From: Aphrocallistes beatrix
Taxonomy: Eukaryota; Porifera; Hexactinellida; Sceptrulophora; Aphrocallistidae
Reading direction: 5' to 3'
Assembly: GCA_963281255.1 (NCBI GenBank)
Contig: OY725496.1
Span: 1,798,001 to 1,862,000, forward strand
DNA: 64,000 nucleotides
The notes beneath the pieces were generated by a model, which was given only the letters and a program-made list of their open reading frames with translations, was not told the DNA's origin and did not search any database. Positions 14,972-57,959 of this stretch are shown in pieces (position 1 is the stretch's first letter; every line of letters starts with the position of its first letter). The translations under genes were made by a program, and so were the position numbers.

Positions 14972-16043
14972 CATGGAATACTTAATATACGGCTATATAT
15001 GTCACCGAGAAGGCCATAAAACGAAGAGACCAGTTTTAACAAAATCAAAATTTAATTAGACTGATAAATCAAAAACAGCTTCCGATAGACATTTGAAATG
15101 TATTAATACCATATACAAACATTATATCAGAGTATCCAATTCAGCTGTCAAAAATTTAATATGTCATCATGTGATTGCGCAATTGGCAATTTTTGGAGCG
15201 GAAAATGTTGCTATTCCAGCTCATATTAAACATCGTTATCTGCATTTCTAATGTTTGATTTTTTTTAATAGAGCAACAATAGAAAGACCTCAAGCCAAAA
15301 AATCTGAAAATTTTGGTTGGAATGTCTATGCATTCCTCAGTTGCTATGGAAACAAAAAATTACATGTTTAAGCCATAACTCGAAAGGTATAGATCGTAGA
15401 CACTAAGAAATTATACTATTTAATCCGTAAACTATTACTTCCTATATGAGAATAAAACTATTCACATGTCTATTTTCAATAAGTTCTGAGTAATCTTGGA
15501 TTTTGTCACATCCCATTACTTCTCTATAGATCGTGATAAAATCCTCGATAACTCAGAACTTATTGAAAATAGACATGTGAATTGTATTATTCTCATATAA
15601 GAAGTAATAGTTTGCGCCTACGATCTATACCTTTCGAGTTATGGCTTAAACATGTAATTTTTTGTTTCCATAGCAACTGAGGAATGCATAGACATTCCAA
15701 CCAAAATTTTCAGATTTTTTGGCTTGAGTTATTTCTATTGTTACTCTATCAAAATTCTAAGCATTAGAGATGCAAATAACGATGTTTAATATGAGCGAGA
15801 ACAGCAACATTTTCCGCTCTAAAAAGAGCCTATTGCGCAATCACATGATGACATATCAAATTTTTGACAGCTGAATTGGATACTCCGATATAATGTTTGT
15901 ATATGGTAATAATACATTTCAAATATCTATCGGAAGCGGTTTTTTATTTATCGGTCTAATTAAATTTTAACTTTGTTAAAACTGGCCTATTCGTTTTATG
16001 GCCTTCTCGGTGACATATATAGCCGTATATTAAGTAGGCCATG
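14972..16043. mobile_element. P-like fold-back element, copy 1
   Basis: A 1072-bp near-perfect palindrome centred near 15520. Ends are CATGGAATACTTAATATACG and, inverted, CATGGCCTACTTAATATACG. The 7-bp flanks CCCCCGT (14965-14971) and CCCCCAT (16044-16050) are a target duplication with one difference. Arms include GTCACCGAGAAGGCCATAAA and the stretch TTCCATAGCAAC shared with the fold-back at 22971. It is noncoding and would fold into a ~500-bp hairpin. Terminus and duplication length match the THAP-bearing element at 39079. Confidence 0.82.
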
Positions 16044-22860: not shown

Positions 22861-23735
22861 TTTAAAAAAAATAGATTTGCAGTATCCCTCAATTTCCATT
22901 AGGTTAACTGCTTCATCATATTATATAACGTGCAATTATCAGCAGTTCTTAACTTCAAAATATGACAAATCATAGCCTACTGTATATGAGGCCTCAGAGG
23001 AACTTGACTAGGGATGCGGTAGAAGATGGTTGAGCTAATACAAGAGCTGCCTTAAATCATTAACAAAGCACAATAGAGCTTAGGAATGTATTACCAGCAT
23101 ATATAAATATGGTGTCAAAGTACCGATATCCGTTGTTAAAATTTAGATTAGTCACCATATTGTTGCGCAATAGGGTATTTTCGTGACAAATTTGGTGATT
23201 TTAGAGGTCGTTTAAGGGCACTTCTAAGTGTTTTTTTATTATGAAACTTTTCGCATAGAACTAAGATGTGAATGGGTTATTAATACGAAAAACTTGGGAT
23301 TTTTTCATGGAATGTCGCTACATTCCAGTGTTGCCATGGAAACGTGTTTTGGTCAGTTAGAGTCATATCTTAAAAACCGCAATAGCTAGTCGTTCAAATG
23401 TAATTCTATTTGATAGCGAATATACTACTTCCTATTAAGCGATAATATAATTTCGACGTCTAAATTCAATGGTTTACGAGATATTCGACAAATTACCAAA
23501 TGTGACCATTATGATAAATTGTATAATATCTCGTGAATCATTGAATTTATAAAATAAATTATATCATTACTTGATGGGAAATAGTCTATTGGCTATCAAA
23601 TGGATTACATTTGAATGTCTAGCTATCGCAGTCTTCAAGATATGACCCTAACTGACCAAAACACGTTTCCATAGCAACACTGGAATGTAGCAACATTCGA
23701 TGAACAAATTCCAATTTTTTCGTATTAACCCATTC

Positions 23736-25801
23736 CATAGCCTACTACATACAGGCTGTTTCACTACTTTAGACCAGGGATAAGATAAAGTCGAGTTTTT
23801 AATACAATTAAATTTAACACAATATCATTTTGATATATTTAATATCGTGTAATTATACATCCTCTATCCCACAATAATGATATTACTGACTGCTGGCATA
23901 ATTTAGTTGACGGACAAGGAATACTACATAAATATATAGGTGTATATATATATACATATATTAATTAGAGGTAAGTTTAAGTATCTTCCTTTGAGTATCT
24001 TTGGGACAAGAGGTGGTAGAAGTAATATTATTGGCCTTGTTGTTGAGTAAACAGTTACTTGAAGTCATTAAAATACAACGTAGCATATCTTTTCCGTCAA
24101 TACAGCAATCAGTACACTCAAAAGCCCAATCCTCACATTCTTCATCCTCAATTTTTAGAATAGCCAACTGAGCCTCATCCAAATGCTCCAGGTGCGTATC
24201 GAAACTGGGCGAGTGGACACATGTGTCATCAACAAACGCCTGTACATTCGGACACCCTCGTAGAGCCTGGTCTACCGCTCGCTGATAGGTAGCCTGTGAG
24301 TTTGACAATCCAAAAGGCATGCGGTTGAATTCAAACTGGCCGCGAGTTGAAACAACGCAGTGAACTCCCTATGCTTTTCCTTCACAAGAACGCTCCAGTA
24401 TGCGGATGCCCCATCCAGTGTAGAGAATACAGTTGCCCCTCCCATACGATCGAAAACATCTCGGGTATCCGGCATCGGATAGGCATCTCGCTTCGTCACA
24501 TCGTTGAGATCCCGGAAATCTACGGCAAATCGATGGGTCCCGTCCTTTTTCTTCACTAAGATCACTCGACTCGCCCAAGAGGAAGAAGAGGGACGTATGA
24601 TCCCATTCTCGAGCATTTCATCTATCTGCTTGGATACCTCCGCCTCAATTTCCGGAGAAACACGCAACGGCCGGCTTCTGATCGGCCGCTCATCCAGAAG
24701 AGTGATAACGTGTTCCGCAGTTCCAATTTCGCGCGGGCTCTTCGGGTTCTCCGCGATAACGTCTTTCCATCTCGACAGCACCTTGCGTATGGCTGTCTCT
24801 TCTCGCGGTGATAGTTTCGGGTTTATATCGAACCTGGCCTCCAAGCTATCTCCCTCCTTTCCCATCTCAGTCTGCATAATTTCTGCTCTAGTCGCCGCGT
24901 ATCCCGGCGTGCCGCAGCTAAAGAGGTTTTCCAACAACCACCTAGCCTAACTCTCATGTTTTCCCAATCGAAAGTAGTATTCTTGAAGCGCGCGAGGAAC
25001 CTTCGACCCAATATATACACCCTATTGTTAGTATCGAGTACTTCGATTTCGTGTTCTAGTGGTCGACCATCCCCCACATCCATCGCCACGCAGGCCGTAC
25101 CACAGACCGCAAGCGCTGTCCGCCCTAGCCCATACACTTGACTGTACTTTGTGCTGTAAGGAATATTCATCTTTTGTACGGTGCCTCTGTCCACCACCGA
25201 AGGATCCGCCCCCGTGTCCATCATTACATTGATGGGTTTGCAGTTCCATTTAACTGGTACCACAACCGCCGTCTCATGTACAACACTATGCTGCGTCGTG
25301 GCCTGAAATACCCCTCTTCGACTTCGTGTATGTGGGCAGTAGCGGACCTCGTGTCCTCTTTCGCCACATTTCGCACAGTGCCGTTCCGGGCATTGGGCCA
25401 TAAAGTGCCTGTTCGAGTCGCAAATAAAGCACCGACCCTTCTTAGGGAATTGGCTTGCCGGATACTTCCTTGTAGGTCCATCCCGCCTCCCCATTGCCCT
25501 TTGCTGCGTGGCGCATCCATATATGTATAGAAACAGTTGAGAGCTAACATTCAAGAACAAATACAACGTAAAAGTAAAAAGGAACCATATAGCAGAGAAA
25601 GAAAATAGCCATAACATTGATATTAATTTATTGGAACGTAGACTAGTTTCATATAGTTAGGCATCAAACAAATGATGAATTAGCAGATTTGGAACAAAAA
25701 TTATTTATTCATATTATGGGTGCGTAAGAAAATCCACTTTATCTTATCCCTGGTACCATGGAAAATTGTTCAGTGAAACGGCCTGTATGTAGTAGGCTAT
25801 G
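23736..25801. mobile_element. P-like element nested in the previous one
   Basis: Ends CATAGCCTACTACATACAGG and, inverted, CATAGCCTACTACATACAGG, with a 7-bp duplication CCCATTC (23729-23735 and 25802-25808). Subterminal repeats (AGGGATAAGATAAAGT) are also inverted. Its middle is filled by a Gypsy-type retrotransposon fossil, and I see no P-type transposase in it. Confidence 0.85.
23990..25617 (-). mobile_element. Ty3/Gypsy-type LTR retrotransposon fossil (gag end-pol fragment)
   Basis: On the minus strand, in the order typical of the family: two CCHC-type zinc knuckles (about 25435-25330), a retropepsin-like aspartic protease with its DTGA motif (about 25230-24970), and the N-terminal two thirds of a Ty3/Gypsy reverse transcriptase including its FVDD box (about 24820-24190). 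RNase H, integrase and LTRs are not seen; homology ends near 24180 and an acidic, Cys-rich stretch of unknown origin follows. The element is truncated and broken, with roughly one or two breaks in the remaining part. The good preservation suggests moderate age. Base composition is clearly more GC-rich than the surroundings. It sits inside a P-like element. Confidence 0.8.
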
Positions 25802-26424
25802 CCCATTCACATCTCAGTTCAATGCAGAAAACTTTATAATAAAAACACTTAGAAGTGCCCTTAAACGACCTCTGAAAATCACCAAATTTGTCACAAATAT
25901 AACCTATTGCGCAACCATATGGCGACTAATCTAAATTTTAACAACGGATATGGGTACATTGATACCATATTTATATATGTTGGTGATACATTCTTAAGCT
26001 CTATTGTGCTTTATTAATGATTTAAGGCAGCTCATGTATTAGTTCATCCATCTTCTACCGCATCCCTAGTCTCAAATCTGCAAATTACTCTGAGGCCTTA
26101 TATATAGGCTATGGACAAATAAAAAATTTTCACCTCCAAAATGTGAAAAACTGGACAGTCATGACTAGCCACCCAAAATAATCACATCGGATAGTATCGG
26201 CCAGAATCCCAGATCTATAACTTCTTTCAACAATGTTAGATTATTATTATAATTCTGATTTCGTTTCAAACTTTGAATTTCCAGCGATTTAAAACATATA
26301 TTGAACATATTTGGAGAATTTTGTGGTAGACAATGGCAAGCAGTGACCAGGAATTCTTAAACAATCCTGGCAGTTGCAAGGAACCCGCAGCTACAATATT
26401 ATCCAAATGTACCCATTATATATA

Positions 26425-33223: not shown

Positions 33224-35535
33224 TTAAGGATACCGCCCTCGAAAAATCTTGATTGGCGTAAAAAAAAACTGCAAAATGTTTTATTGCTAATTTTATTGTA
33301 TTACTGATCGGTCCACCATCTGATAGCACTATTTGGACGGCATTTTTTTGTATTTTTTGCGAAATAACCCCCTAAAGTTTAGCGCTAATAAAAATTGAAA
33401 ATTATTAGAGGATTTTGACTCATTTACCAGTTAGTTTTTAACTTATTTGATATTTTTTTAATGATATGAACCTTGACATTGTATTAGCACCTTTGGAGAT
33501 TATAAAACACAAAGATTTAAAAGAATGGGCAAATAAAATCCAAACAAAATAGCTCTATAAGGGAGTTCATTTATATAATCCTCGGGAAATCGCAAGTTTG
33601 ATCTCAGATATTTAGCGATCACTGGGTCAGAAATAAAATTCTGATCGTTTCAAAAAAAAATTTGTTCGGATCCGACCATTTGTTCTTGAGATATCGCATA
33701 TTATAGGTAAAGTTCGGCCATAATATCCCTCTAAGGTCCCGAAAGAGGCTGATGTCATATCTTAAAAACTATTGTAGATATATAATATATTATATCCTTA
33801 AATAAAAGGATATATGCGAAAATATATAGGTTCCTCGAACATTCCTTTGTCAAAAAATAAATAATTCTCGACTTATCATTGATTTAATTGTAATACAAAT
33901 TCGATGGAGAACTTTGAATCTATTAGAAAATGGCGAATCTAATCATTAAATATGTGTCCAAATTTAGCTATTATGCTAAATAGTGAATACAATTGCCGTT
34001 AATAATATGTACAGAAAAATTGGAGAACTTTTGATAATTATTTTGAAAGTTCTGGCCTTGGACCTCGCAGATTCGGTCAAAAACCCCCATTTAGGGTCCA
34101 AAAAGACATATCTCTCTATCTTTGTAAATACAAGTCCAAATTCTTAGTTCTCACTTCCTAATATACTTTTTACGAGTGTACATATATGATTCTTTGATAA
34201 TAATTGCGCTACACCCTATGGAATGTTAAGTTTTAGATTTTTGTCATATGATGACGTAGCATTTTTCGAAAATCCTAACTTCGAAACTAAAAAAGTCGTA
34301 GACTTTCGCTCTAACTTCCTAATATACTTTTTGGAAGCTTTTTATTCATTCTAAACTGATATATTATACTTCGCAGTGCCAGGAATATGAAATATTATCT
34401 ACAATTATCTCAAAATATTCGGAGTTAGGGGCCTCAAGGAAATTTGTGGATTTTCAGGGTACTTTTGCTATTTTTGGTAAATATTTGGCTTTAATATACC
34501 TAGATCAGCAGTATGGATGCGAATAAATGTCTGTGGATGCTTATGTGCATTATTAATAACTCATTTTACATTCTTCTTAACACCTAAACTTAAAATCTCT
34601 ATATCTCGGGACTTTAAAATTTCAAAATTGACCGTCTTTACAGAATTATTTCTCAAATTTGGTTTGAGATAGAAGTTTGAAAATTTCAAGAGTTGTTTCA
34701 TATCATTAGGCGATGAACGTAGGACCACCATTTTTTGGATATATTCTAACTCGGTGATTTTATTCATGATTTCCAAAAAAAACAGACATTTTTCGCCGTT
34801 TTTTGGCCCTTTTTTTTCGGACACCGATAAAATTACAATATTTGTCATTTTAACTTTCTTCTGGTCCTATGAAGTTGCAAATATGGTAGACTATCTATGA
34901 TTCGATTTTGGAAGCGTTTGATTCCTTGGTATGTCCATAGCATTCTATATACTAAGGCAATGGCACTCTATTCAAAATCTGGACCATGGATGGCCATTAC
35001 CATCGAACTTTCTAGACAATTAATTTATCAAGTTTTATGATTTTGTGATTAAATATGATAAATTCATATACTCTCTACTTACTTAGAAGATATTTTGAAA
35101 TAATTTTCCGAAACTGAAATAATTCATTTTCCTGGATATTTGCACCATCTATCTATGCGTGAAAAATATCATAATACATCACCTTAGAATGACAACATCT
35201 TGATTTTTACAACCTCGGGTTCAGGAAATAGATGCACTGATGTAATTACTTGGAAATAAGCCTGTGAATTTACTAATATGTGTCAACTTCTGTCAAATAA
35301 ACGTCACTGAATAAAATGACTAACCACATTTTGGTCACCCATAATAATTAAAAACAATATTTTTACGATATTTCAAAATGTTCTCAAAATATTGTCACTC
35401 ACTCAAATCACCTATCTGCGCATCGCTTGTCTATTCAACATTCATCTTCACATCACGTCTGCTCTATTCTACCCTATTCTCACTATTACTCGATTCACAG
35501 CATACTTTTCAACATGGCTCGTCTGGTACCTGGTT

Positions 35536-35700
35536 CATACTTGCCAACTGTCCCGTTTTGGCGGGACGTTCCGCTTTTTTCACCCTCCTCTTGACCTCAT
35601 TTTATCGAGTGTCCCGCTTTTAAATGAAATTTCCCCATTATGTCCCGCTTTTTTTTAACGCTGCGTCCCGATTTTATCATGACTCAGGTTGGCATGTATG
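35536..35700. mobile_element. small MITE, family CATAC(A/T)TGCCAAC
   Basis: 165 bp with inverted ends CATACTTGCCAAC and GTTGGCATGTATG and a 6-bp direct repeat CTGGTT on both sides (35530-35535, 35701-35706). The interior has repeated TGTCCCG motifs, also read inverted. A related left end lies at 51085 (CATACATGCCAACTGTC). Confidence 0.7.
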
Positions 35701-36373
35701 CTGGTTGTAAGTCAAACTATTGTGATAAGATGAATCCAACCTGTTTTCTCTTTTCCTGCTGACAATGTAACTCGTGAAAAATGGTTCCGAGCTATACCTC
35801 GGCGGAGAGAAGACTACGAGATGAACAAACGGTTGAGGGTATGTTGGATAATACACTTTAATCACAATAGTCTATTGTAATTTGTTTTTGCATCTATTGC
35901 ATCTAGTCGAACTCCCTGTCGGTGGGTTATTTATTGATCAAATTCAACGGTCATATTTTTTCTTAAGATACAATATCATAATGAAATTTCTACAATCGAA
36001 CCTTCAATCATTATTAATGAAAATTTATATTACAAGGCTTTTTATAATGGAAACAAACAAAATTTAACTATCCTGCCACTCACTAACCGATACCATGTCA
36101 TTGGAAAATATCATTAATGAAGTCGAATTATTTGAAATTATTAAAAATGAGAAGGTAATTTCCTCATCCACCCCTTCGATTCAACACGTGAATAATGCCA
36201 TTCATAATATCACTAATGCTAAGATAAAAAAATAGTATTGGTTTAGAGAGTGAGTATACTAAAATTCTAGAAGTTGCTTCCAATTTAACGATTTAGAGCG
36301 TCATGTCATTCTTCTGAAGTCTACATTCGTAGTGATGAAATAGAGATAACACTAAGCTAAAAATATATAACTA

Positions 36374-36561
36374 CAGTCAGGGTCGCTTACTATGAACCCG
36401 CTTAATATGAACATTCGTTTATTATGAACTAACCTCCTGGTCCGAATACCTTTTTTTAGATAGGATTTGTATTGAATCAAGTTCGCTTAATTAATATGAA
36501 GTATCTCTATTATGAACATATTCTTGGCCCCCTGGTGGTTCACAATAAGCGGCCCTGACTG
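36374..36561 (+). mobile_element. M MITE, intact reference copy
   Basis: 188 bp, ends CAGTCAGGGTCGCTTACTAT and ATAAGCGGCCCTGACTG, TA at 36372-36373 and 36562-36563. Tc1/mariner/pogo-type. Three further partial copies at 30901, 32205 and 33124 can be aligned to it; two of them were targets of A elements. Confidence 0.88.
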
Positions 36562-36584
36562 TATTTTTTAATGTTCTTTTGTTT

Positions 36585-36612
36585 TAGAGAGAGAGAGAGA
36601 GAAAGAGAGAGA
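36585..36612. repeat. (GA)n microsatellite
   Basis: Run of GA dinucleotides with one AA interruption, inside the 1.97-kb element. Confidence 0.9.
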
Positions 36613-37146
36613 ATGAAGAAGCTAGTCTAGTTCTAAATGAATTGTCACACTTTATCTTTTATTTATTTAATTATTTATTTATATTTAGCAGTGTATTGAT
36701 TGTGATTTTACCTTACATTGTGATTTTATTTTAAGTGGGTTGGGTGGTCCGAAATCATTAAAATCAATCAAATGTTACATTATAGTACTTTAGAATAGTA
36801 ATGAAAGGCAGTATAACAATACATTATATTTTGCAAGCCGATGGTAATGGCCATCCATGGTCCAGATTTTGAATAGAGTGCCATTGCCTTAGTATATAGA
36901 ATGCTATGGTATGTCCTAAACAATTCATTGAGTGCCTAAATTTCTACCATTAAGATGTGCTAGCGGAAAAAAAACAGACTTTGAGACACTGTATCTCAAA
37001 ATTTAGAAATGAGAATTAAAAACGGTTTGGAATGTGCCAGTATTTCTTGATGGAGATACCTCCCCACGCTTAACATCTCTTATAGCTCTACTTTCATCGT
37101 ATGCTGTAATGCAAATCATATGTTTTTTCGAGGGCGGTATCCTTAA

Positions 37147-38514: not shown

Positions 38515-39078
38515 TTATCGTCATCATTAAATAACGCCTAAACCACAAAACCACATTCTTAAGTACCTCAAAAATGTTCGGAGTAGATTTGCCATACCTG
38601 ATTACCTCATATTGTATATAATCTATAACTATAAAACGACTATTTTACCAGAGAGAAAAAATTCAAAATTGGCCCTTCTTTTTTTTCTGAGTTTCGGCTA
38701 CTTGCCAATCTGTATATTAAGTAGTCTATGAATCTTTGAAGAAAATTTATTGTTGCAGAACTTTTGGATCACTCTATATCTACATTAACACAGGAAAAAT
38801 GTACATGGTGACTCATAATTTCTGTGAAAAACATTCTTCGTTAGGAATAATCTTTTTATACTCAAACAATCTTAATTATTATGGTCTTTAGAGATTGTAA
38901 TTCGAATATTTTCAATGATTTCAAAAGATTTTTCGAGTCTAAAATCTGCAACTGTGTTTTGTATGGCAAGTTTTGTGAAAAAAATGTGTCCCTGCGCGGA
39001 GCGAAGATCGCAAATCAGGACCGACTGCTTTTCAAATATCTTTCTAGTCTTCGAATTCTAGGAAAAATTAGCTGTCAC
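38515..39078. other. unassigned flank with a solitary P-like end
   Basis: AT-rich. GTATATTAAGTAGTCTATG at about 38708-38727 matches an inverted P-like terminus, but no partner end was found. A plus-strand open frame (38881-39153) runs across the left end of the next element and is not accepted. Confidence 0.4.
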
Positions 39079-39556
39079 CATGGCCTACTTAACTCAGGCC
39101 TCACAGTAGAATGTGAAATTTGGACCAGGGATGCGATCGAAGCCGAACAATGAAATACCAACTTTTCAATATTTCGTGGTAATTTTAGTACATAATGATT
39201 TGAGTGATAGCCTTGAGCGTTCACATTTGATCTAACCCTCATTAATTTCTATTTTAAATGTTTCCATCATACTATACTATATTGAGTATTGAAGTATATA
39301 TATCATATATTTCATTTAAATAACTGAAATAAACAAGGCAATACTATTACAATCACAATTAATAATGTACAGTATTAAAACAGTTTTACAACACATAAAC
39401 TTTCTTTCGATCCTTTTAGCGCTGTTGTTTCTCCGATTAACAAATTGAGGGTTGAGTTACTGGCATGTGAGAAAGGTTGGCCGCGCTTACAGCTGAACTA
39501 AATAAAGAAAAATAAAGTTAAGCACATACTATATTAAAATATAAGGATATTAAGAG

Positions 39557-39835
39557 TTAAATTTTTTCAATTCCTCTACATACTACCATGGAATTATAAT
39601 TTTTTACTTTATTAGCTATCATACAATTTCCTGAAACAAATAATCGAAAAACGAGGAATATTGCAGGAAGGACATGTATTTTCCCAGACATCACATGTAT
39701 TTTTCCAGAAATCAGTCTACTATCTACTATTGAGTTTAAAGCAAGCACGACTAGAATTTTCCTCGCTGGCCCTTCATGGTAACAGACGAACAATGCAGGA
39801 CCATTTTTTCTGAAGGCTCGAGACCATGATATCAA
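39557..39835 (-). CDS. unidentified open frame inside the P-like element
   Basis: A 92-codon minus-strand frame with a protein-like start (WSRAFRKNGPALFVCYHEGP) and a short internal near-repeat (SGKIHVMSGKIHVLP). It lies downstream of the THAP exon on the same strand, where the rest of a transposase would be expected, but I cannot match it to a P transposase domain. Confidence 0.25.
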   Translation of the reverse strand: MISWSRAFRKNGPALFVCYHEGPARKILVVLALNSIVDSRLISGKIHVMSGKIHVLPAIFLVFRLFVSGNCMIANKVKNYNSMVVCRGIEKI

Positions 39836-40108
39836 TTACAGTTTTCGTAGGATTATCTAGACATATATTGGATCCTATAATTTTGCCGCCCTTGTATTAT
39901 ATATCGGGTTTTACGTGAATTTCATCCATTTGAAGGATGACATGCTTTCGTTCATTCGAAAAAGAACACGTTGCTTGCCTCAGGAATGGAAATAATTTAT
40001 TTTCGAGCCCAAATGAAAAGTACAATTTTTCTAAAGTATTGAAGTGAGGAAGTAATAGGCAAGGCATGTGCTGGAGATACTTATAGGCGAGATCAGATGT
40101 GTTTTAAG

Positions 40109-40342
40109 CAGGGTTGGGTTTTGTCCGTCCAAAACAGGTTTTGGACAGGGCAGTGGACAAAACCTGGTTTTAACAACTGGACAAAACCTGGACAAAACTT
40201 GGATATAATGGTTATATCCAAGTTTAGTCCAAGTTTAGTCCAGGTTTAGTACAGTTTTGTCCACCCAAGTGTTGGACAGGACGGTTTTAACCTGGTTAAA
40301 ACCACTAGGTTTTGTCCAAGTGGACAAAACCTGCCAACCCTG
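40109..40342. mobile_element. hAT-like MITE, family CAGGGTTGG
   Basis: 234 bp, nearly palindromic, built from repeated GGACAAAACCTGG / CCAGGTTTTGTCC motifs. Ends are CAGGGTTGGGTTTTGTCC and GGACAAAACCTGCCAACCCTG-type; the 8-bp target duplication is GTTTTAAG (40101-40108, 40343-40350). It supplies the last ~33 codons of the THAP open frame, which are therefore not original. Confidence 0.92.
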
Positions 40343-41247
40343 GTTTTAAGAGATAATATTTGTGTGAGTATGTTGTATCTACGTCTATTTTTGGGAACAA
40401 GACTGTTTTCTAATTGGCATTGAATGAATTGGAGAGAAATTTCTGGATGCTCAGATGTTTCCACATCCGAACTGGTATGCATAATATCAATGGCTTGTTG
40501 GATATGAACATTCGCTGATGATATATGGGAAGCAGTAGATCCAGAATTCTTAGATGGCTCACATCGATAAGGCGCACTAGAAATTTCATTCACAAGTGGT
40601 TCAAGTTGTCGAATATCACTTAGGCAACTGAGCGAATGTGGAAAAATCTCATTTTTACAAAAGTCCTTGATAGAAAGATCGAACGTTACTACCAAATAAA
40701 CATCAACTAGTATACTAGAATTCTCTAAACTAGGACGCATACAAATCAAGCTATGTTCATCTGGGTTCCATAATGACCAGGTTTTAGGTAAAGAAATAAG
40801 TGATAACTTACCTTGCATTTCCTGGAAGCAGCTAACCTTGAATCTCTCTTTTTCTTCTGGATCAGATCTCAGGCTAAGTGTCAAAGCTTGATTGATGAAC
40901 TCGTCATCTTTTGAGTCGAGAGACCGACGACTTCGCTTAGCTGCAGATTGGGAGTAGTATGAAGAACATCCTGGTAGAAAGACTGGTACAGCATCATCCC
41001 TCAGCTTTGGGTTCACTCTAGGGATTTCGCGAAAAGTACCATCTCCGTTGGGAACCTTGTTCGTGTACTCGATATCTTCAGTCCTAAAGTGCTTCGCGCA
41101 GACGTAAACAGCCTTTAACTCGTCTATATAATCTCTGCGGAGTGCCCGAACCCAAGCGTGTCTAAGTTGATCTGGTTTCTGCGGCATCTTGAAAAGAGTC
41201 ACACGATCTTCAGACTTGTAGTTACTCTTGCAACCAGATGCCGAGCA
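40343..41247 (-). pseudogene. THAP zinc-finger protein exon of the P-like element
   Basis: THAP domains are C2CH zinc-dependent DNA-binding modules. On the minus strand the domain reads, in order: CSASGCKSNY (first Cys pair, about 41247-41218), VTLFKMP, W in HAWVRALRRDY, CAKHF (third Cys and His), and the C-terminal AVPVFLPG box. About 90 residues, the normal THAP length. It is followed by a basic stretch KRSRRS and ~200 residues of unassigned sequence. The first Cys pair precedes the earliest Met at 41202, and a stop lies just before it, so an upstream exon joined at the CACAG near 41250 is likely. The reading frame runs on into the hAT MITE, so the native C-terminus is lost. Confidence 0.75.
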
Positions 41248-41520
41248 ACTGTGGTCGGCATTTCAAATGTAAGTACGTTGCTAGTGCAAAAAAGAAATGT
41301 ATGTAAATATTTATTATTATGATTAAAATATATATGAATGCAATTTTTACAAATTAAAGTATATACGAACATGATTGTATGAAAATGTTATGGGTAGTTG
41401 TGAATAGATAAACACGAATAAAACATTGTGGTTAATTAACAATTACCGGCTTCGACTGCATCCCTGGTGCAATATTTCCATTCTACTGTGAAGCCTGAGT
41501 TAAGTAGGCCATGCTGTCAC

Positions 41521-43247: not shown

Positions 43248-45599
43248 CAGCGGTTCCCAACCCCGGGGTAATTACCCCAAGTGGGGTAATATGAAGATTT
43301 TCGAGGGGTAATGGAGTGCTTCTTTATCTTTAGAATTCAGGTCAGAATTTGTTATTATTACTTCGGCATAAAGTTTTTGTTATTCGTTTTGCAGGATATT
43401 AATGGGGTTCTAATTGGCTTCATACTGTGAATTATAAACTAATATTGACTAAACGTGTTTGAAGGTATTCCTGTGATAAAATTATATTGGCTGTTATTAT
43501 ATATTACCTACAGAAATGTTCCAGCTACAATCTTTGTCGATTACTATAAGTATGTTTAATATTGAAAAATCTCACATTACAACTTGCAACATTACAACTT
43601 ACAGTCTTACAACATTACTACATTACTACATACAACTTTAAACATTGTTTACCAAGATCCTTAAAATGTCTAGAAAGAGGTCGTATAATGAAAGTTTCCT
43701 GAATTTTGGTTTTTCGTTTATGACGAAAAATGATACTCAAATTCCACAGTGCGTTATCTGTTATAAAACACTGACTAACGAGTCTATGAAGCCATCAAAA
43801 CTGAGGGAACATTTCGTTAAAATGCACCCTGAGCTCGTGGACAAGGGGGTTGAGTACCTTAAGTTAAAAGCCGAGGGGCTCAAAAGAGCGAAACTTGATT
43901 CAAGTGCGACTTTCCGACAGGAGTAGAATAAGTTTGTAGAGGCATCTTACTACATCTCATTGCAAATAGCAAAGAACAAAAAACCTCATACTATTGGAGA
44001 AGAACTCATCAAACCTTGCATACTATTGGAGAAGAACTCATCAAACCTTGCCTTCTAGAAACTGCCCGTCTCATTTTCAATGAAGGGAGCTACAACAAAA
44101 TCAAAGAAATCTCGCTATCAAATAACACCGTACAACGTCGAATACAGGAAATAGCTATCGATATCAAGGAACAGGTGATAGAAAAAATTCATTCTTCTCC
44201 CTTTTTCTCAATTCAACTCGATGAATCAACTGATGTCGCTCAGTGTGCACAACTAATGGTATTTGCAAGATATGTTTATAGGGGCTCTGTTGAGGAAGAT
44301 TTTCTTTTTTGTCGTCCGTTGGAGGCTACGACAAAGGCAGACGACGTTATGTCCTATGTGTCCAGTTTCTTCGAAGAAGCAAAATTCCCTTGGAACAAGC
44401 TTGTTGGTGTATGTACTGACGGAGCACCAGCCATGCTTGGTTCTCGATCAGGATTTATTACTCAAGTTAAGCAGAAGAATCTTGAGGTTGTTGGAACACA
44501 TTGCATGATCCATCGAGAGGCTCTTGCTTCAAAGACGCTACCTGCCAGACTAAGAGCAACCTTAACCGAAGTAATCAAAGTAGTAAATTATGTGAAGGGT
44601 AGTGCGCTAAATACAAGATTGTTTCGACAATTATGTTCGCATTTCGATTCAACACATCACGATCTACTGTTTTATACCCAAGTACGGTGGTTATCAAAAG
44701 GTAATATGCTAGAGAGCGTGCTTGAACTTCGATATGAGCTTGAGACATTTCTTGATGGACAGGAAAAGAATGATCTCTTATTAATCATGAAAACCCAGTG
44801 TTTCGGTACACAACTTGCGTATTTAGTTGACGTATTTGAACTATTGAATAGTTTGAACAAAAAGCTGCAGGGCAAGGAGTCTGATATAATAACACACAGT
44901 GATCACATCGAAAAAGTTCTTCTTTGGAAAAGAAAATTGGACTCAGGGAATTTCTCGGCCTTCCACAAATTGAGTGAAATTTTAGGGGAGGAGTCGATAG
45001 GTGCAGAGTTAAAAGAGGACATCAGAAACAATCTCAATGGTTTACAAGGCGAGTTTGAGCGATATTTTCCACAGATCAACACTGAAGCAATTGAAATGGT
45101 CCTAACAAGAGATCCCTACAAGTGTATTGTGGATGAACTTCCGGAAGATACTCAAGAAGAGTTTTTGGAACTCACAAACAACTCATCCGTGAAAATGGAA
45201 TATAATTCACTTAGTCTCCCAAACTTCTGGGTAAGGATGTTACCATTATTCCCGAAGATTAGCAAAATTGCTCTTCTGATCCTTATTCCATTTTCATCAA
45301 CTTATCTATGTGAGGCCGGATTTTCGTCTTTGCTTGCCATAAAAACCAAGCAAAGCAATAAATTAGATTGCGAGGGGGATCTGCGCTGTGCATTGAGCAA
45401 AACGGAACCTCGTTTGAAAGAATTAGTGGCGAAAAAACAGAAACAAGTTTCCTATTGAACTATATTTAGATAATATAATTATAAATAATTAATTCAAATT
45501 AATAAAAAAATTCTGATACATTGCCTCCTCAATTCGGGGTAGTAGGGTTGACAGTGTCGAACAACGGGGTAGTAACAATAATAAGGTTGGGAACCGCTG
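43248..45599 (+). mobile_element. complete hAT element with ZBED-type transposase
   Basis: 2352 bp with inverted ends CAGCGGTTCCCAACC and GGTTGGGAACCGCTG and a perfect 8-bp target duplication ATCTAACT (43240-43247, 45600-45607). The ends are flanked internally by GGGGTAATTACCCC and repeated GGGGTAGTA motifs. It carries a nearly full-length transposase gene. The CAG...CTG ends and 8-bp duplication are diagnostic for hAT. Confidence 0.95.
43666..45458 (+). pseudogene. hAT transposase, BED finger plus catalytic and dimerisation domains
   Basis: The N-terminal part (from the Met at 43666) has a BED-type finger: CVICYKTLTN and LREHFVKMHPE. The catalytic RNase H-like region follows with PFFSIQLDESTDV, GVCTDGAPAMLG and GTHCMIHREALA, and the hAT C-terminal dimerisation block ends the protein (STYLCEAGFSSLLAIKTKQ). 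This is the ZBED5/SCAND3-like group of hAT proteins. Two lesions separate the N-terminal frame from the rest: an in-frame TAG at 43924 and a 32-bp tandem duplication (43987-44018 repeated at 44019-44050) that shifts the frame. The remaining 480-codon frame from 44016 is intact. Base composition is markedly less AT-rich than the flanks. Confidence 0.9.
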
Positions 45600-52242: not shown

Positions 52243-54210
52243 TTAATCCTTCTTAACAAAGAATGTATTTTCGCGTACTGTTGTGCCAAGAATAAAATCA
52301 TCACCGATCTTTTGTATATCGAGTGTATCCGAAATATCACGGTGAACTGATAAAAGAGCCAATGAACTTAGTCGCATCTCTCCCATTGTACTCCTCAGCC
52401 ATGTTTTTAACCTGCGAAGGCAGCTAAAGCTTCTTTCTGCAGTACAAGATGTGGCAGGAAGAACAAGTAGAAGTCTCACGGTCATTACATAATCCCTGAA
52501 AACTTCCATGAGTGTGCTATTTTCTGATAGAATCTCTTGAAGACCTTTGAGAGTTGATGCTTTTTCTGTAATTTCGCTATAGTCTACATATGCAAAAAAG
52601 GACCCTTTCTGATTATTCAATCGGTCTGCATCTAAATCTTCATGGTAAAAGGCTGCAATCTCGTTAATGTAAGGTGAATTTCTATCTAATACAACCGACT
52701 CTAATTTTTCTAGAATTTCCATACATTCCAAATTGTAGTGATTGGAGATTGTTGCAGCACAATCAGCAAATACTTCTAGGTAAATGCTAGTGTAGTACGC
52801 CTCTACTCCAATGTCAGCCTGACTAATGAGAGAATGATCATTTTGTGCTTTACGGCCGCACCTCCGTGGTAATTTTGGGTCCTCAAGCTTCAAATCTATA
52901 GCTTCTCTTACAACTTTTTCAAAGTGCTGCTTTGCACCCAACGCATTTTTACTTCCCGATATAAGAAGCCTCTCCAAAGTTCTTATCTTTGATTTTGCGT
53001 AAGTAATGGTGATATTTGGTGATATTTGGTGATTGTATTGCTGTATGAACAGGATGTACCATTTCAAAGAGTTTCTGAAGCGTCCTAATCAAGTAATAAG
53101 TGGAGAATTTCTCCATATAGTTGAGTGTAGCCATCGCTTTGCTTCTATCTTCTGCCCTAAGGTCATTATCCATCTTTCGCACCTCGTACCAATCCATGAG
53201 TGCTTCATACTGCTGTACAAATGCACTGAGAGCCGAAGCCCTGCACACCCAACGGGTTGACGAAAGGGGCCTTAATGAAGCTGATTCTTCTGACATAAAT
53301 CCCTTGAAAGAAGCTAAACGTTTTGGAGACATCTTCACATAGTTAACAACCGACGATACAAGTGTCATAGCATTCTCTGCAAGGGAACCATGTTTTACAG
53401 AATGTTGTACGACGAGGTTCAAAGCATGTCCAGCACAGTAACAGTATAATGCTTGTGGAACAACTTCACGCACTCGACTCTGGAGTCCTTTTACATGTCC
53501 TCTCATGGCCCCAGCACCGTCATAGGATTGGCCTCTGACTTTGTGAAGTGGCAACTCACATTGCACCAGTTTTTCTTTGAGAATTGCAAAAAGTGCCTCA
53601 CCATCAACCTTTTCAGCGCTGACAAAACCGATAAAATCCTCTCTTACAGCTAAAGTATTCGGATGGACAGATCTAAAACAGCAGGTAACTTGTTCGAGCG
53701 TTGCAACGTCGCTAGTTTCATCCATTATAATGCTATAAATCGCTGATTCTCTAACCTCCTTCAGGACCACATCTAAGATAGCATTCCCAAGGCGTGTAAT
53801 CATTTCATTCTGGATTTGATGACTCAAATACTGCATGAGATTCTTTTCGGAGAGCCAGTTCTTCAGTTCTAAGCTAGTCATTGCAACAAGATTCAACAAC
53901 TGTATTAGGTTGCTATTTTCATCAGTGTGACCCCGAATGGCAAGGTCCTGTCTCCCGCAAAGTTTGATAGTAGCCAAAATAATATCTAAAGCTCTGCGGT
54001 TTTCTTTTTTCTGTTATACATGTTGCTCGCTCACCATGTCTATCACATTTGGGCATGCTGAAGACGAATAAGTGGTGTTAGCTAACCTGTGGCATTCCGA
54101 ATTTTCATGAGTCTTAAACCCTCCATCTTTTCCCAAGGCCTTCTTCCAATTACAGTAGCCATCATGTACCCATACTTTCGAGATCCGACAATAAGTGGGA
54201 ATACGTTTGT
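52243..54210 (-). pseudogene. hAT transposase (TTF finger, ZMYM1-like group)
   Basis: In order on the minus strand: a TTF-type zinc-finger end (WKKALGKDGGFKTHENSECH, about 54160-54100), a domain with HTDENSNLIQLLNLVA, and a catalytic region with SIIMDETSDV, GQSYDGAGAMRG and CYCAGHALNLV. The C-terminal hAT dimerisation domain follows (SCTAERSFSCLRRLKTWLR). A stop near 54015 separates the finger from the catalytic part. A near-threefold 10-bp repeat (GGTGATATTT, 53008-53035) accounts for the frameshift that splits the rest into two overlapping frames. Otherwise well preserved, so fairly young. Confidence 0.88.
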
Positions 54211-55690: not shown

Positions 55691-57959
55691 ACTCTGGCTT
55701 GTCTCAAACAGTCACTAAATATGACCGCGTATTCAAAGTTCCAAATACTCCAACTGATGTTATCCCTTCTTCAACCTCTCCTACTGAGCTCAGATCTACT
55801 TCTCACAATTTTCCTTGTCTTCACAGACTTCCGAAGATTCGGATAACTCCACGAAAGTTCCTTCTTTTTCTTTCAGAGGTAAAAGAAGAGTAAAAAAGTC
55901 AACGTTTAGAGGTTTCGTAAAGGGGAAGGACTGAAAAGAAAATCATCTTTCACACCATTACCTGCAAAGAGACTACCATCGAAACCGACATCCGAACTAT
56001 TCAAACAAGTAAAGTTCCTTCATCCACTAAATTCATAAGTATCAAATTGCGTAAAGGCGAAACTCACTTATTCTGTGATCTATTAACTCCCCATGGATCA
56101 CAAATTATCGACATGGACTTACTTAGCATGGTATTTTTCGCTTTTAAGATGCACTGAACCAAAAAGCACAGGATCACTCAAAGTATACATATACGCCTTT
56201 CGAGATGGCTTACAGTCATATTTATTATTAAATTGTAGCTATTGCCATCTTGTGATGCCGAATTCCCAACTTCTCTGCCTATTGGCATGCAACCCACGGG
56301 TGCCATGTATGACTCTCAAATGCAATCCTGGAAAAGGTTGGAAGTGAGCGTGAGGGCTTTATTAGCAGTGCACTGCACCTCTTTCAGTTGGAATGATTCC
56401 TTACTCTGGTGCAATCTCTTTGGGATACAGAATATCTGGAAGCGAATGAACCTTTCTTTTCCCTCTTGAAATTGGTCGAATCAGCAAATAAATCTGTCAA
56501 CAACCCATGTCCATGTCATCTAAACTTGTACGCGACACAGCCGACACGTCAAATATCCCAGAATGTAAGAATTGTACTGTCACTTCATGGCATCAGAGAG
56601 GCAATTATTCGAATCAAGGGTTCGCGGCTGCAATTGAGGTATATAGTGGTAAGGTATTAGACTACATCCTCTATGAACGCGTGTGCAGCAAATGTCTCAA
56701 ATGAACTGAAGAGAGGAAGAAAGACAATCCAGATTATTATTGCGAATACTGGAAGAAACATTCCGGCGAGTGTCCGGCAAATTATTCCGGGACTAGCTAA
56801 GGAATGGAATCTTCAGCTGCACTTGAAATTTGGGCTAGATCTGTCACCAAACATTCTCTTGCTTATACTTCATATGTAGGCGAAGGAGACTCAAGCTCTT
56901 TTAAGCGGCTACGAGAAAGCGATCGGTACAAAGGATTGGAAATTTACGAAAGGAGGAGTGCATCTGGCATGCGCAAGAGAGATTAAAAAAGACATTGAGG
57001 AAGAAAACCAGGAAAACTTTGACATCAAAACCAATACCCGCTTCAAAGGTTCAGAGGATTGGCCATCTTTACGCACTTGTCATCGTTCAAACAGAAGGAA
57101 AACAGCGAAAGACATTCAAAAGGCTCTCTATACACTACTCGATCATTTAGTTGAGAAGCATGAAAGTTGTCCGTTTTCAAAGAGCTCTTGGTGCTACTTT
57201 CAAAAGGCCCTTGCACTTTCATTCGAAGATATCCCTATTCCACCTCCCAAACTGCGACGACCCTATCTGAATGTAGATGAGTTATCACGACTGCAAGATA
57301 TCTTTTAGAAGTTTGCAAGCCTAGATATGTGTTCCGCCTTGACGCTTGGTTTGACACAAAATGCCAATGAAACCTACATTCAGTTCTGTGGCACAATGCT
57401 CCCAAAGAAAAACGGGTAGGACTATACTCACTCCAAGTTTCTGCGTCAATAGCTGTGTCAACTTTCAATGAAGGATCATTGATACTCGCATCGATCTTAG
57501 AGGATATGGGGTACCATGTACTAATGTGACTCTAGCTCACCTCGTAACGATGGATAAGGAACGAAATAGATGCAAGACAAAGGCTGTTATGGATACTCAG
57601 AAAAGACGCAGGAGTCTTCTGAAGAGTCAATTCCTGACTGCCGAATCGAATCGAATCGTAAAAGCGAAAAAGACGCGACTACGTATAAATCTGGATGCTT
57701 TGGTAGTGAGCTATCCTATTCTGGCAGTAAAGAAGTCACTCCTCCCATCCTTGTTGTTAACAAGAATGATAATGAAATCTGCGAGAAATGCGGAATGCAT
57801 GATTGTCCAGTTCTGAGAGACCAGAAGAATGATGACTGGGTGGGATGTGATTTCCGTGAAAGTTTGTATCATACTGGCTGTGAAGATGTATGGTTGATGG
57901 ATATAGGTGATGACCCTTATATCTGTAGGAAATGCGAGCAAGAGTGGAATAAAGTGTAA
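55690..57959 (+). pseudogene. Mutator-like transposase relic with a C-terminal PHD finger
   Basis: The plus strand, in several frames, shows the block order of the animal Mutator-like transposase family. Blocks are GSQIIDMDLLSMVF (~56096), GFAAAIEVYSGKVLDY (~56622), a cysteine block around CSKCLK, ARSVTKHSLAYTSYVGEGDS (~56840), a CPFSKSSWCYFQKALAL block (~57170) and GLTQNANET (~57345). The last two match the family's SWC-Y and TQNANES signatures. A PHD-like zinc finger closes it: CEKCGMHDC, a DDWVGCD stretch, YHTGC and GDDPYICRKC (57785-57940), ending at TAA 57957. At least six stops or shifts interrupt it. Terminal repeats were not found. Confidence 0.72.

Follow-up and report, generated by a model that had tools for sequence, protein, structure and literature searches.

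The window, the whole stretch of 64,000 nucleotides analysed here (C10:1798001-1862000), comes from the genome of what is probably a glass sponge (Hexactinellida), searched as 100.5 Mb in 28 contigs. It contains five insertions with inverted ends and a 7-bp target duplication, four of the duplications being exact and one carrying a mismatch. The insertion at 39079-41513 is a P-superfamily element that encodes a THAP finger, as a preliminary description of this DNA had reported, and its features are as follows.

39079-41513, minus strand: non-autonomous P-superfamily element of 2435 bp, an internally deleted relative of the elements at loci L038 and L039, with a hAT-type miniature inverted-repeat transposable element (MITE) inside
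39072-39078, no strand: left 7-bp target duplication, CTGTCAC
41514-41520, no strand: right 7-bp target duplication, CTGTCAC
39079-39145, plus strand: left terminal inverted repeat (TIR), 67 nt, pairing with 41447-41513 at 91%; the pairing extends 6 bp into each flank
41447-41513, minus strand: right terminal inverted repeat, 67 nt, 91%
39124-39133, plus strand: subterminal motif ACCAGGGATG, nt 46-55 from the left end, a candidate binding site of the transposase (THAP)
41459-41468, minus strand: subterminal motif ACCAGGGATG, nt 46-55 from the right end, likewise a putative binding site
40981-41247, minus strand: THAP domain (PF05485, E = 4.2e-13, residues 6-94) in the truncated transposase frame 40246-41262
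40109-40342, no strand: 234-bp hAT-type MITE with CAGGGTTGG ends and the 8-bp duplication GTTTTAAG, within the transposase (THAP) frame
39775, no strand: approximate junction of an internal deletion of ~1.39 kb, with loss of the catalytic core

The MITE is rich in TGGACAAAACC repeats, and we take it to be of hAT type from its ends and duplication length. The first 20 nt at both ends of the 39079-41513 element are identical to those of the elements at L038 and L039. The L039 element is 3591 bp long, and its single open frame, 990 codons in length, encodes a THAP and an RNase H domain; the L038 protein is 98-99% like that of L039, but its frame is broken. By blastn the window element matches L039 in three blocks, with its positions 1-697 corresponding to 3591-2897 and 697-1030 to 1509-1169, and with 96% identity across the 1.18-kb block that holds the THAP part. 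The window frame matches the L039 protein at 91% and has one in-frame stop within the aligned part. The P-type membership that had been proposed is thus borne out by longer end-matching members, in which this THAP domain is fused to a P-type RNase H transposase. Shortened copies have probably been amplified. At least nine copies, that of the window included, align at 82-91% with parts of the N-terminal ~340-450 residues of the L039 protein (46 of 1670 candidates scored), one of them also holding a C-terminal piece. Among 100 listed places with an end plus the subterminal motif there were 32 end pairs within 7 kb, and five of these 32 spanned 2542-2545 bp.

At least 131 matches to PF21787, the P-type RNase H family, were found in the genome (150 of 177 candidates scored), and 10 kb around 20 of them was taken for study. 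Each of the eight long frames scanned contained PF21787, and six of them contained THAP (PF05485), as did the window frame; the two frames that had no THAP match (L041 and L048) both start inside the domain and may miss a first exon. A profile built from 11 frames matched the Drosophila P transposase structure 6p5a with E = 4.7e-27 over residues 95-540 of the 569-residue chain, the region of the GTP-binding insertion included, and a single-sequence comparison with the fly P protein gave a weak match (E = 6e-5). In searches of the PDB with these proteins, fly P was the only transposase among the matches listed, alongside THAP-domain proteins. Columns were compared at residues D230, D303, D339 and E531 of fly P (PMC8230255). 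D-x-x-H stood at the D339 column in all 11 frames and E at the E531 column in all ten frames that reach that far, with D at the D230 and D303 columns in 10 of 11 frames each. Judged from the aligned residues, this is the RNase H-like D, D, E and D-x-x-H pattern of the P superfamily. A tree of 28 sponge loci, with fly P as the single outside sequence and with rows that may combine parts of adjacent elements from a single locus, separated three clades. Clade A includes many subfamilies (support 0.989 on the branch separating it from the rest), clade B consists of L040, L042, L044 and L045 (0.999) and clade C of L031 and L026 (1.000), with a weak grouping of B and C (0.705).

The end sequence CATRGCCTAC occurs 3,584 times genome-wide (1807 + 1777) compared to 153 occurrences (70 + 83) of the same pattern read backward, which excludes a chance origin of the count. 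This corresponds to ~1,800 copies on the assumption of two such ends per copy, copies with other ends lying outside the count. A generic end scan accepted element ends at 16 of the 20 PF21787 loci, 14 of them with 7-bp duplications, one with 8 bp (L031) and one ambiguous (L030). At those 14 loci inverted ends enclose the transposase match, and the 7-bp duplication of the element is exact in 13 and has one mismatch in L047. Inverted matches with 6- or 8-bp flanks at L033, L034 and L041 (one in L041 having 8 bp and a single mismatch) were judged to be chance repeats and discarded; at L046 the scan gave no inverted-repeat match at all. End pairs at L002 (76 bp) and at L037 (3277-8982) were also dropped as chance.

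Among the 24 elements from the window and the fetched loci that had both ends resolved, 20 had an exact 7-bp duplication, two had 7 bp with one mismatch, one had 8 bp and one, L030, allowed either a 7-bp or an asymmetric 8-bp reading. The 7-bp footprint claimed for the window elements therefore holds for 22 of 24 elements, and it has a genome-wide counterpart in the target sequence. Of all 3584 CATRGCCTAC ends, 775 (21.6%) had GT at 7 bp beyond the end and 753 (21.0%) had AC immediately next to it (position -2), compared to a dinucleotide background of ~4.9% measured in the window. GT was found in 192 of 3584 cases (5.4%) at 6 bp outside, and in 107 (3.0%), below background, at 8 bp outside. 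The counts amount to a preference for a palindromic GTNNNAC target whose symmetry is that of a 7-bp stagger. The canonical 8-bp duplication of Drosophila P is thus not what these elements make, and the 7-bp duplication and GTANTAC-like palindromic target of Galileo are matched on the outer GT...AC positions. Duplications are 7 bp in clades A and B alike, and since these two deep clades share it, the 7-bp length may be ancestral. The sole clade C element measured (L031:581-6359) has the exact 8-bp duplication AGAAATGC, and it seems, by eye from the residues, to contain a hAT-like frame.

For the fly P transposase, cleavage of the 5' strand is described as lying 17 bp into the inverted repeat (PMC7776569, PMC10983969). 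Because the cut lies there, an end-joined donor site should keep both duplications and at most 17 nt of each end. Places where an end faces an end across a spacer of 0-30 bp were found 49 times genome-wide, with none in the reversed control, and no such place was found genome-wide with a spacer of 31-61 bp. A search failure does not account for the empty class, as 203 ends were found over the same gap range when the subterminal motif was used as the second word. The 49 short palindromes, which we read as excision scars, are 21-48 bp long (30 of them at most 34 bp) and none measures 51-81 bp. To size their 98 stubs, 35 reference end sequences were used; they came from the elements and from all further CATRGCCTAC occurrences in the fetched DNA, and some of them are unconfirmed as ends. 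Twenty-five stubs were of 17 nt, 15 of 18 nt, four of 19 nt, 49 of 16 nt or less and five of 21-27 nt, and the drop from 17 to 19 nt is accounted for by chance matches at the next base adding to a limit of 17. We know of no other cut-and-paste family that leaves stubs this long. Nine scars were read with their flanks, of which four had exact 7-bp repeats, three had 6 of 7 matching positions, one had an 8-bp repeat (8/8) and one had a repeat disturbed by an indel, so that seven of nine keep the 7-bp repeats with at most one mismatch. Most flank-read scars fit the prediction of P-type excision with a 17-nt stagger. Five of the 49 had direct repeats of 8-9 nt inside them, suggestive of templated filler. 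Indirect support for 17-nt staggered donor cleavage comes, at the level of DNA sequence, from the peak of stubs at 17-18 nt and from the absence of any scar above 48 bp among the 49.

The other four insertions of the window are the following, of which the last lies outside those described before.

14972-16043, no strand: fold-back of 1072 bp, its subterminal sequence resembling clade B elements by eye; duplications CCCCCGT and CCCCCAT, with one difference
22971-26113, no strand: fold-back of ~1070 bp with clade A-type ends, split by the nested element 23736-25801; duplication GACAAAT on both sides
23736-25801, no strand: non-autonomous element of 2066 bp, nested in the fold-back 22971-26113; duplication CCCATTC on both sides
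34936-36908, no strand: fifth element, 1973 bp, with CATAGCATTC ends; duplication GTATGTC on both sides

The preliminary description had four insertions with inverted CAT(A/G) ends and 7-bp direct repeats, three perfect and one with a single difference. Both points agree with the ends and flanks read here, except that the left end of 14972-16043 (CATGGAATAC) and the right end of 22971-26113 (CATAGCCTAT) deviate from strict CAT(A/G)GCCTAC. The fifth element is a shortened relative of the L048 element, which has a transposase frame of 935 codons. Between the ends of 23736-25801 lie retrotransposon-type protease and reverse-transcriptase pieces (minus strand, 23961-25656; one of the two reverse-transcriptase pieces below the Pfam cut-off), which were either captured or inserted later. 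A 765-bp copy at C11:2426711-2427475 is 100% identical to window positions 22971-23735 and breaks off at the same point, which suggests a recent (segmental) duplication or an assembly duplicate. Remnants of other transposons in the window are a hAT-type transposase at 43932-45458 (dimerisation domain below cut-off), another at 52243-54013 (DUF4371 and dimerisation domain) and a Mutator-like match below cut-off at 56880-57308.

In the resolved elements, ends start with CATA or CATG except in L030 and in L032 and L036 (CGTG); the latter two are clade A elements whose ends start CGTGACCTACG rather than CAT and whose exact 7-bp duplications begin with GTA. The inverted ends of coding elements are 28-260 nt long in 13 of the 14 that have 7-bp duplications, and L043 gave no inverted-end match at the blastn threshold. 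Clade A elements as a rule have ACCAGGGATG, or a sequence close to it, beginning 46-48 nt from the end. One end has the motif 7-10 nt closer in 23736-25801 and 22971-26113 and also, with the variant end judged by eye, in L043, L047, the outer element of L045 and L050. Clade B elements and the fold-back 14972-16043 have a different subterminal sequence. Our guess, from its position, is that the motif is a THAP binding site, and it is named here as a candidate. In fly P the spacers are described as unequal, one being 21 bp, and have been likened to the 12/23 rule (PMC7776569), and in Galileo the nearest binding site is placed ~70 bp inside the end (PMC3688188).

The palindromic ~1.07-kb derivatives that had been noted in the window are palindromic over their whole length. 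Near-complete palindromes are formed by 14972-16043 (1072 bp, arms 92% alike), by 22971-26113 with the nested element skipped (1070 bp, arms 88%) and by L050 (1066 bp), with an arm identity of 88-92% across the three. Among the 100 C1 places listed there were 24 end pairs within 6 kb, of which 10 spanned 1040-1100 bp. The two arms of one copy grouped together in a tree in all four fold-backs compared (supports 0.83 to 1.00), which indicates that arms are made alike within copies, either by conversion or by repeated palindrome formation. The margin is thin for 22971-26113, whose own arms are 88.2% alike compared to 87-89% to the arms of L008, and L050 is ~30% different from the other two clade A-type fold-backs. 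An origin of the fold-backs as simple internal deletions of coding elements was rejected, as only the terminal 55-70 nt are shared by blastn; they are non-autonomous members that keep only the ends. At L045:2557-6639 the outer element measures 1057 bp once the inner clade B element of 3019 bp and one copy of its duplication are removed, and from this net length it is probably another ~1.07-kb fold-back that was used as a target.

Taken together, the data are best explained by cut-and-paste transposons of the P superfamily that insert with a 7-bp stagger, leave excision scars and carry non-autonomous passengers, a model to which we give a probability of about 0.86. Long members such as L039 encode a single protein that combines a THAP finger with a P-type RNase H-like nuclease, and this protein most likely binds the subterminal motif 36-48 nt inside each end. 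The transposase would cut at the element end on one strand and ~17 nt inside on the other, and insertion would follow with a 7-bp stagger into GTNNNAC-like targets. After end joining of the donor break, the scar would consist of the two 7-bp copies with, between them, stubs of the inverted ends no longer than ~17 nt each. The 39079-41513 element would be an internally deleted passenger that retains the THAP part, and the 1.07-kb palindromes non-autonomous passengers that retain the ends only, both presumably cross-mobilised by the long members.

Several observations weigh against this model. The data contain no sign of present-day movement. Thirty-five of the 98 stubs form a further cluster at 12-14 nt, perhaps owing to trimming or to ends of a type absent from the 35 reference sequences, and the five stubs of 21-27 nt exceed 19 nt. 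The flank-read scars were chosen by hand and not at random, and they include the 8-bp and the indel cases. Four scar sequences occur at two places each, leaving 45 of 49 distinct, so that copying is possible instead of independent events, and these repeats slightly lower the odds of the model. At the protein level L047 has Y at the D230 column and L044 has E at the D303 column, and PF21788, the GTP-binding insertion, was above cut-off in only one of eight frames (L043), below it in L041 and gave no match at E 0.001 in the other six. Four of the 20 transposase loci (L033, L034, L041 and L046) had no accepted ends in the generic end scan.

The short TIR-TIR' palindromes might instead be elements reduced to an extreme by internal deletion, or micro-MITEs, whose own transposition produced the 7-bp duplications. 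Some have perfect 7-bp repeats, as true insertions do, a few keep 21-27 nt of an end, and of the four sequences found twice, the pair L057/L058 has different flanks, each with an exact 7-bp repeat. Against this stand the sharp size limit (49 places at 21-48 bp vs none at 51-81 bp, a class whose emptiness leads us not to favour tiny mobile elements of ~40 bp), a length too short for two subterminal motifs that start 36-48 nt inside the ends, the diversity of the sequences, which have ends from several subfamilies, and the templated-looking repeats. Some of the repeated sequences are perfect palindromes, for which annealing at the same short match could recur. We therefore regard jumping micro-elements as unlikely and retain excision. 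Somewhat less probable still is that the 1.07-kb palindromes are a fold-back family of their own, which picked up P-type ends and depends on some other machinery for its movement. The want of any blastn match to the compared coding elements beyond the terminal nucleotides would suit such a family, as would the oddly constant length in the end pairs listed, but the fold-backs have the same ends, the clade A-type ones have the same subterminal motif, and their 7-bp duplications are exact in L050, L008 and 22971-26113 and match at 6 of 7 positions in 14972-16043.

THAP occurs outside P transposases, in Kolobok. The THAP-bearing element could on that ground belong to another superfamily such as Kolobok or Harbinger, and Harbinger-associated THAP genes are on record (PMC10027918); however, the end-matching partners L038 and L039 possess an RNase H domain of the P type and align with the P transposase structure, which already refutes this, and the duplications are 7 bp, leaving it a negligible chance. 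That the elements are a true Galileo (or Galileo/1360) branch rather than a separate lineage is a more serious proposal, although we still consider it doubtful. It would account for the 7-bp duplications, for the GT...AC target bias near Galileo's GTANTAC/GTATTAC and for the fold-back derivatives. Coding elements here, however, have inverted ends of at most 260 nt and not 0.5-1.2 kb, and the sharing of 7 bp by two deep clades means that this length may simply have been inherited.

The probable assignment of the host to the glass sponges is based on the mitochondrial code of cox1 on contig C28, a 527-codon open frame with 14 TGA, no TGG, 16 AGA and 42 ATA codons. Judged by eye against cox1 motifs, AGA stands at conserved serine and ATA at conserved isoleucine positions. 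Glass sponges are described as reading AGR as serine, preferring AUA for isoleucine and hardly using UGG (PMC2267718). A limited literature search turned up no report of P elements in glass sponges, and the main texts of two glass-sponge genome papers contain neither 'P element' nor 'THAP', one of them giving DNA transposons as 15.44% of the genome. With ~1,800 copies, three transposase clades and 49 scars, this genome makes it possible to ask which traits are fixed and which drift among stagger, duplication length, target and subterminal spacing, and it is a source of candidate transposases from a non-bilaterian animal; the fold-backs are a natural set in which the two arms of a copy remain similar. 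In the literature a stagger of 17 nt, as P transposase makes it, has been called atypical and is credited to work on the Drosophila enzyme (PMC7776569, PMC10983969). We put forward tentatively, as somewhat short of an even chance, that the ancestor shared by sponge and fly elements already had both 17-nt staggered excision and the 7-bp GT...AC target, as ancestral traits of the P superfamily, with the 8 bp of fly P and vertebrate THAP9 arising later or separately. If this is true, thousands of insertion ends and dozens of scars would let the ancestral mechanism be read without an enzyme assay.

Among known systems the closest is Galileo of Drosophila, which has a P-superfamily transposase with THAP, 7-bp duplications, inverted ends of 0.5-1.2 kb and copies made of long inverted arms (PMC4168063, PMC3573991, PMC3688188). 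Its target is given as GTANTAC or GTATTAC, a palindrome close to that found here, and its duplications as 7 bp, rarely 8 bp (PMC4168063), with three D. willistoni copies having 8 bp (PMC4168063, PMC3688188, PMC3573991). Unlike Galileo, the coding elements here have ends of 28-260 nt, long arms occur only in non-coding fold-backs, these are near-complete palindromes of ~1.07 kb, and the host is probably not an insect. The preliminary description had suggested that a 7-bp footprint with palindromic derivatives would mark a distinct P lineage. P membership, the 7 bp, THAP and the palindromes all stand, but 7 bp and fold-backs are a weak mark of a lineage by themselves, since Galileo already combines the two and since clades A and B both have 7 bp and the one clade C element measured has 8 bp. 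The kind of element is thus already known through Galileo, whereas the host, the scale, the diversity of clades and above all the scars appear to us to be new.

The P element of Drosophila melanogaster shares with these elements a THAP and RNase H transposase with the D, D, E and D-x-x-H pattern. Drosophila P begins with CATG, a start also found among the ends here. The spacing of the subterminal motif differs between the two ends in several elements here, as it does in fly P, and the scars fit the 17-nt stagger described for that enzyme (PMC7776569). The duplications here, in contrast, are 7 bp and not 8 bp, there are fold-back derivatives, and L039 has a single open transposase exon. Zebrafish Pdre2/THAP9 likewise combines a P-type transposase with internally deleted copies (PMC7776569), but is described with 13-bp inverted ends and 8-bp duplications, a length found here only in L031 of clade C. 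The nearest parallel to the 39079-41513 element itself is the Drosophila KP element, which is internally deleted with the THAP end kept, as in the nine or more copies here, whereas the window copy is broken by the hAT-type MITE and the in-frame stop.

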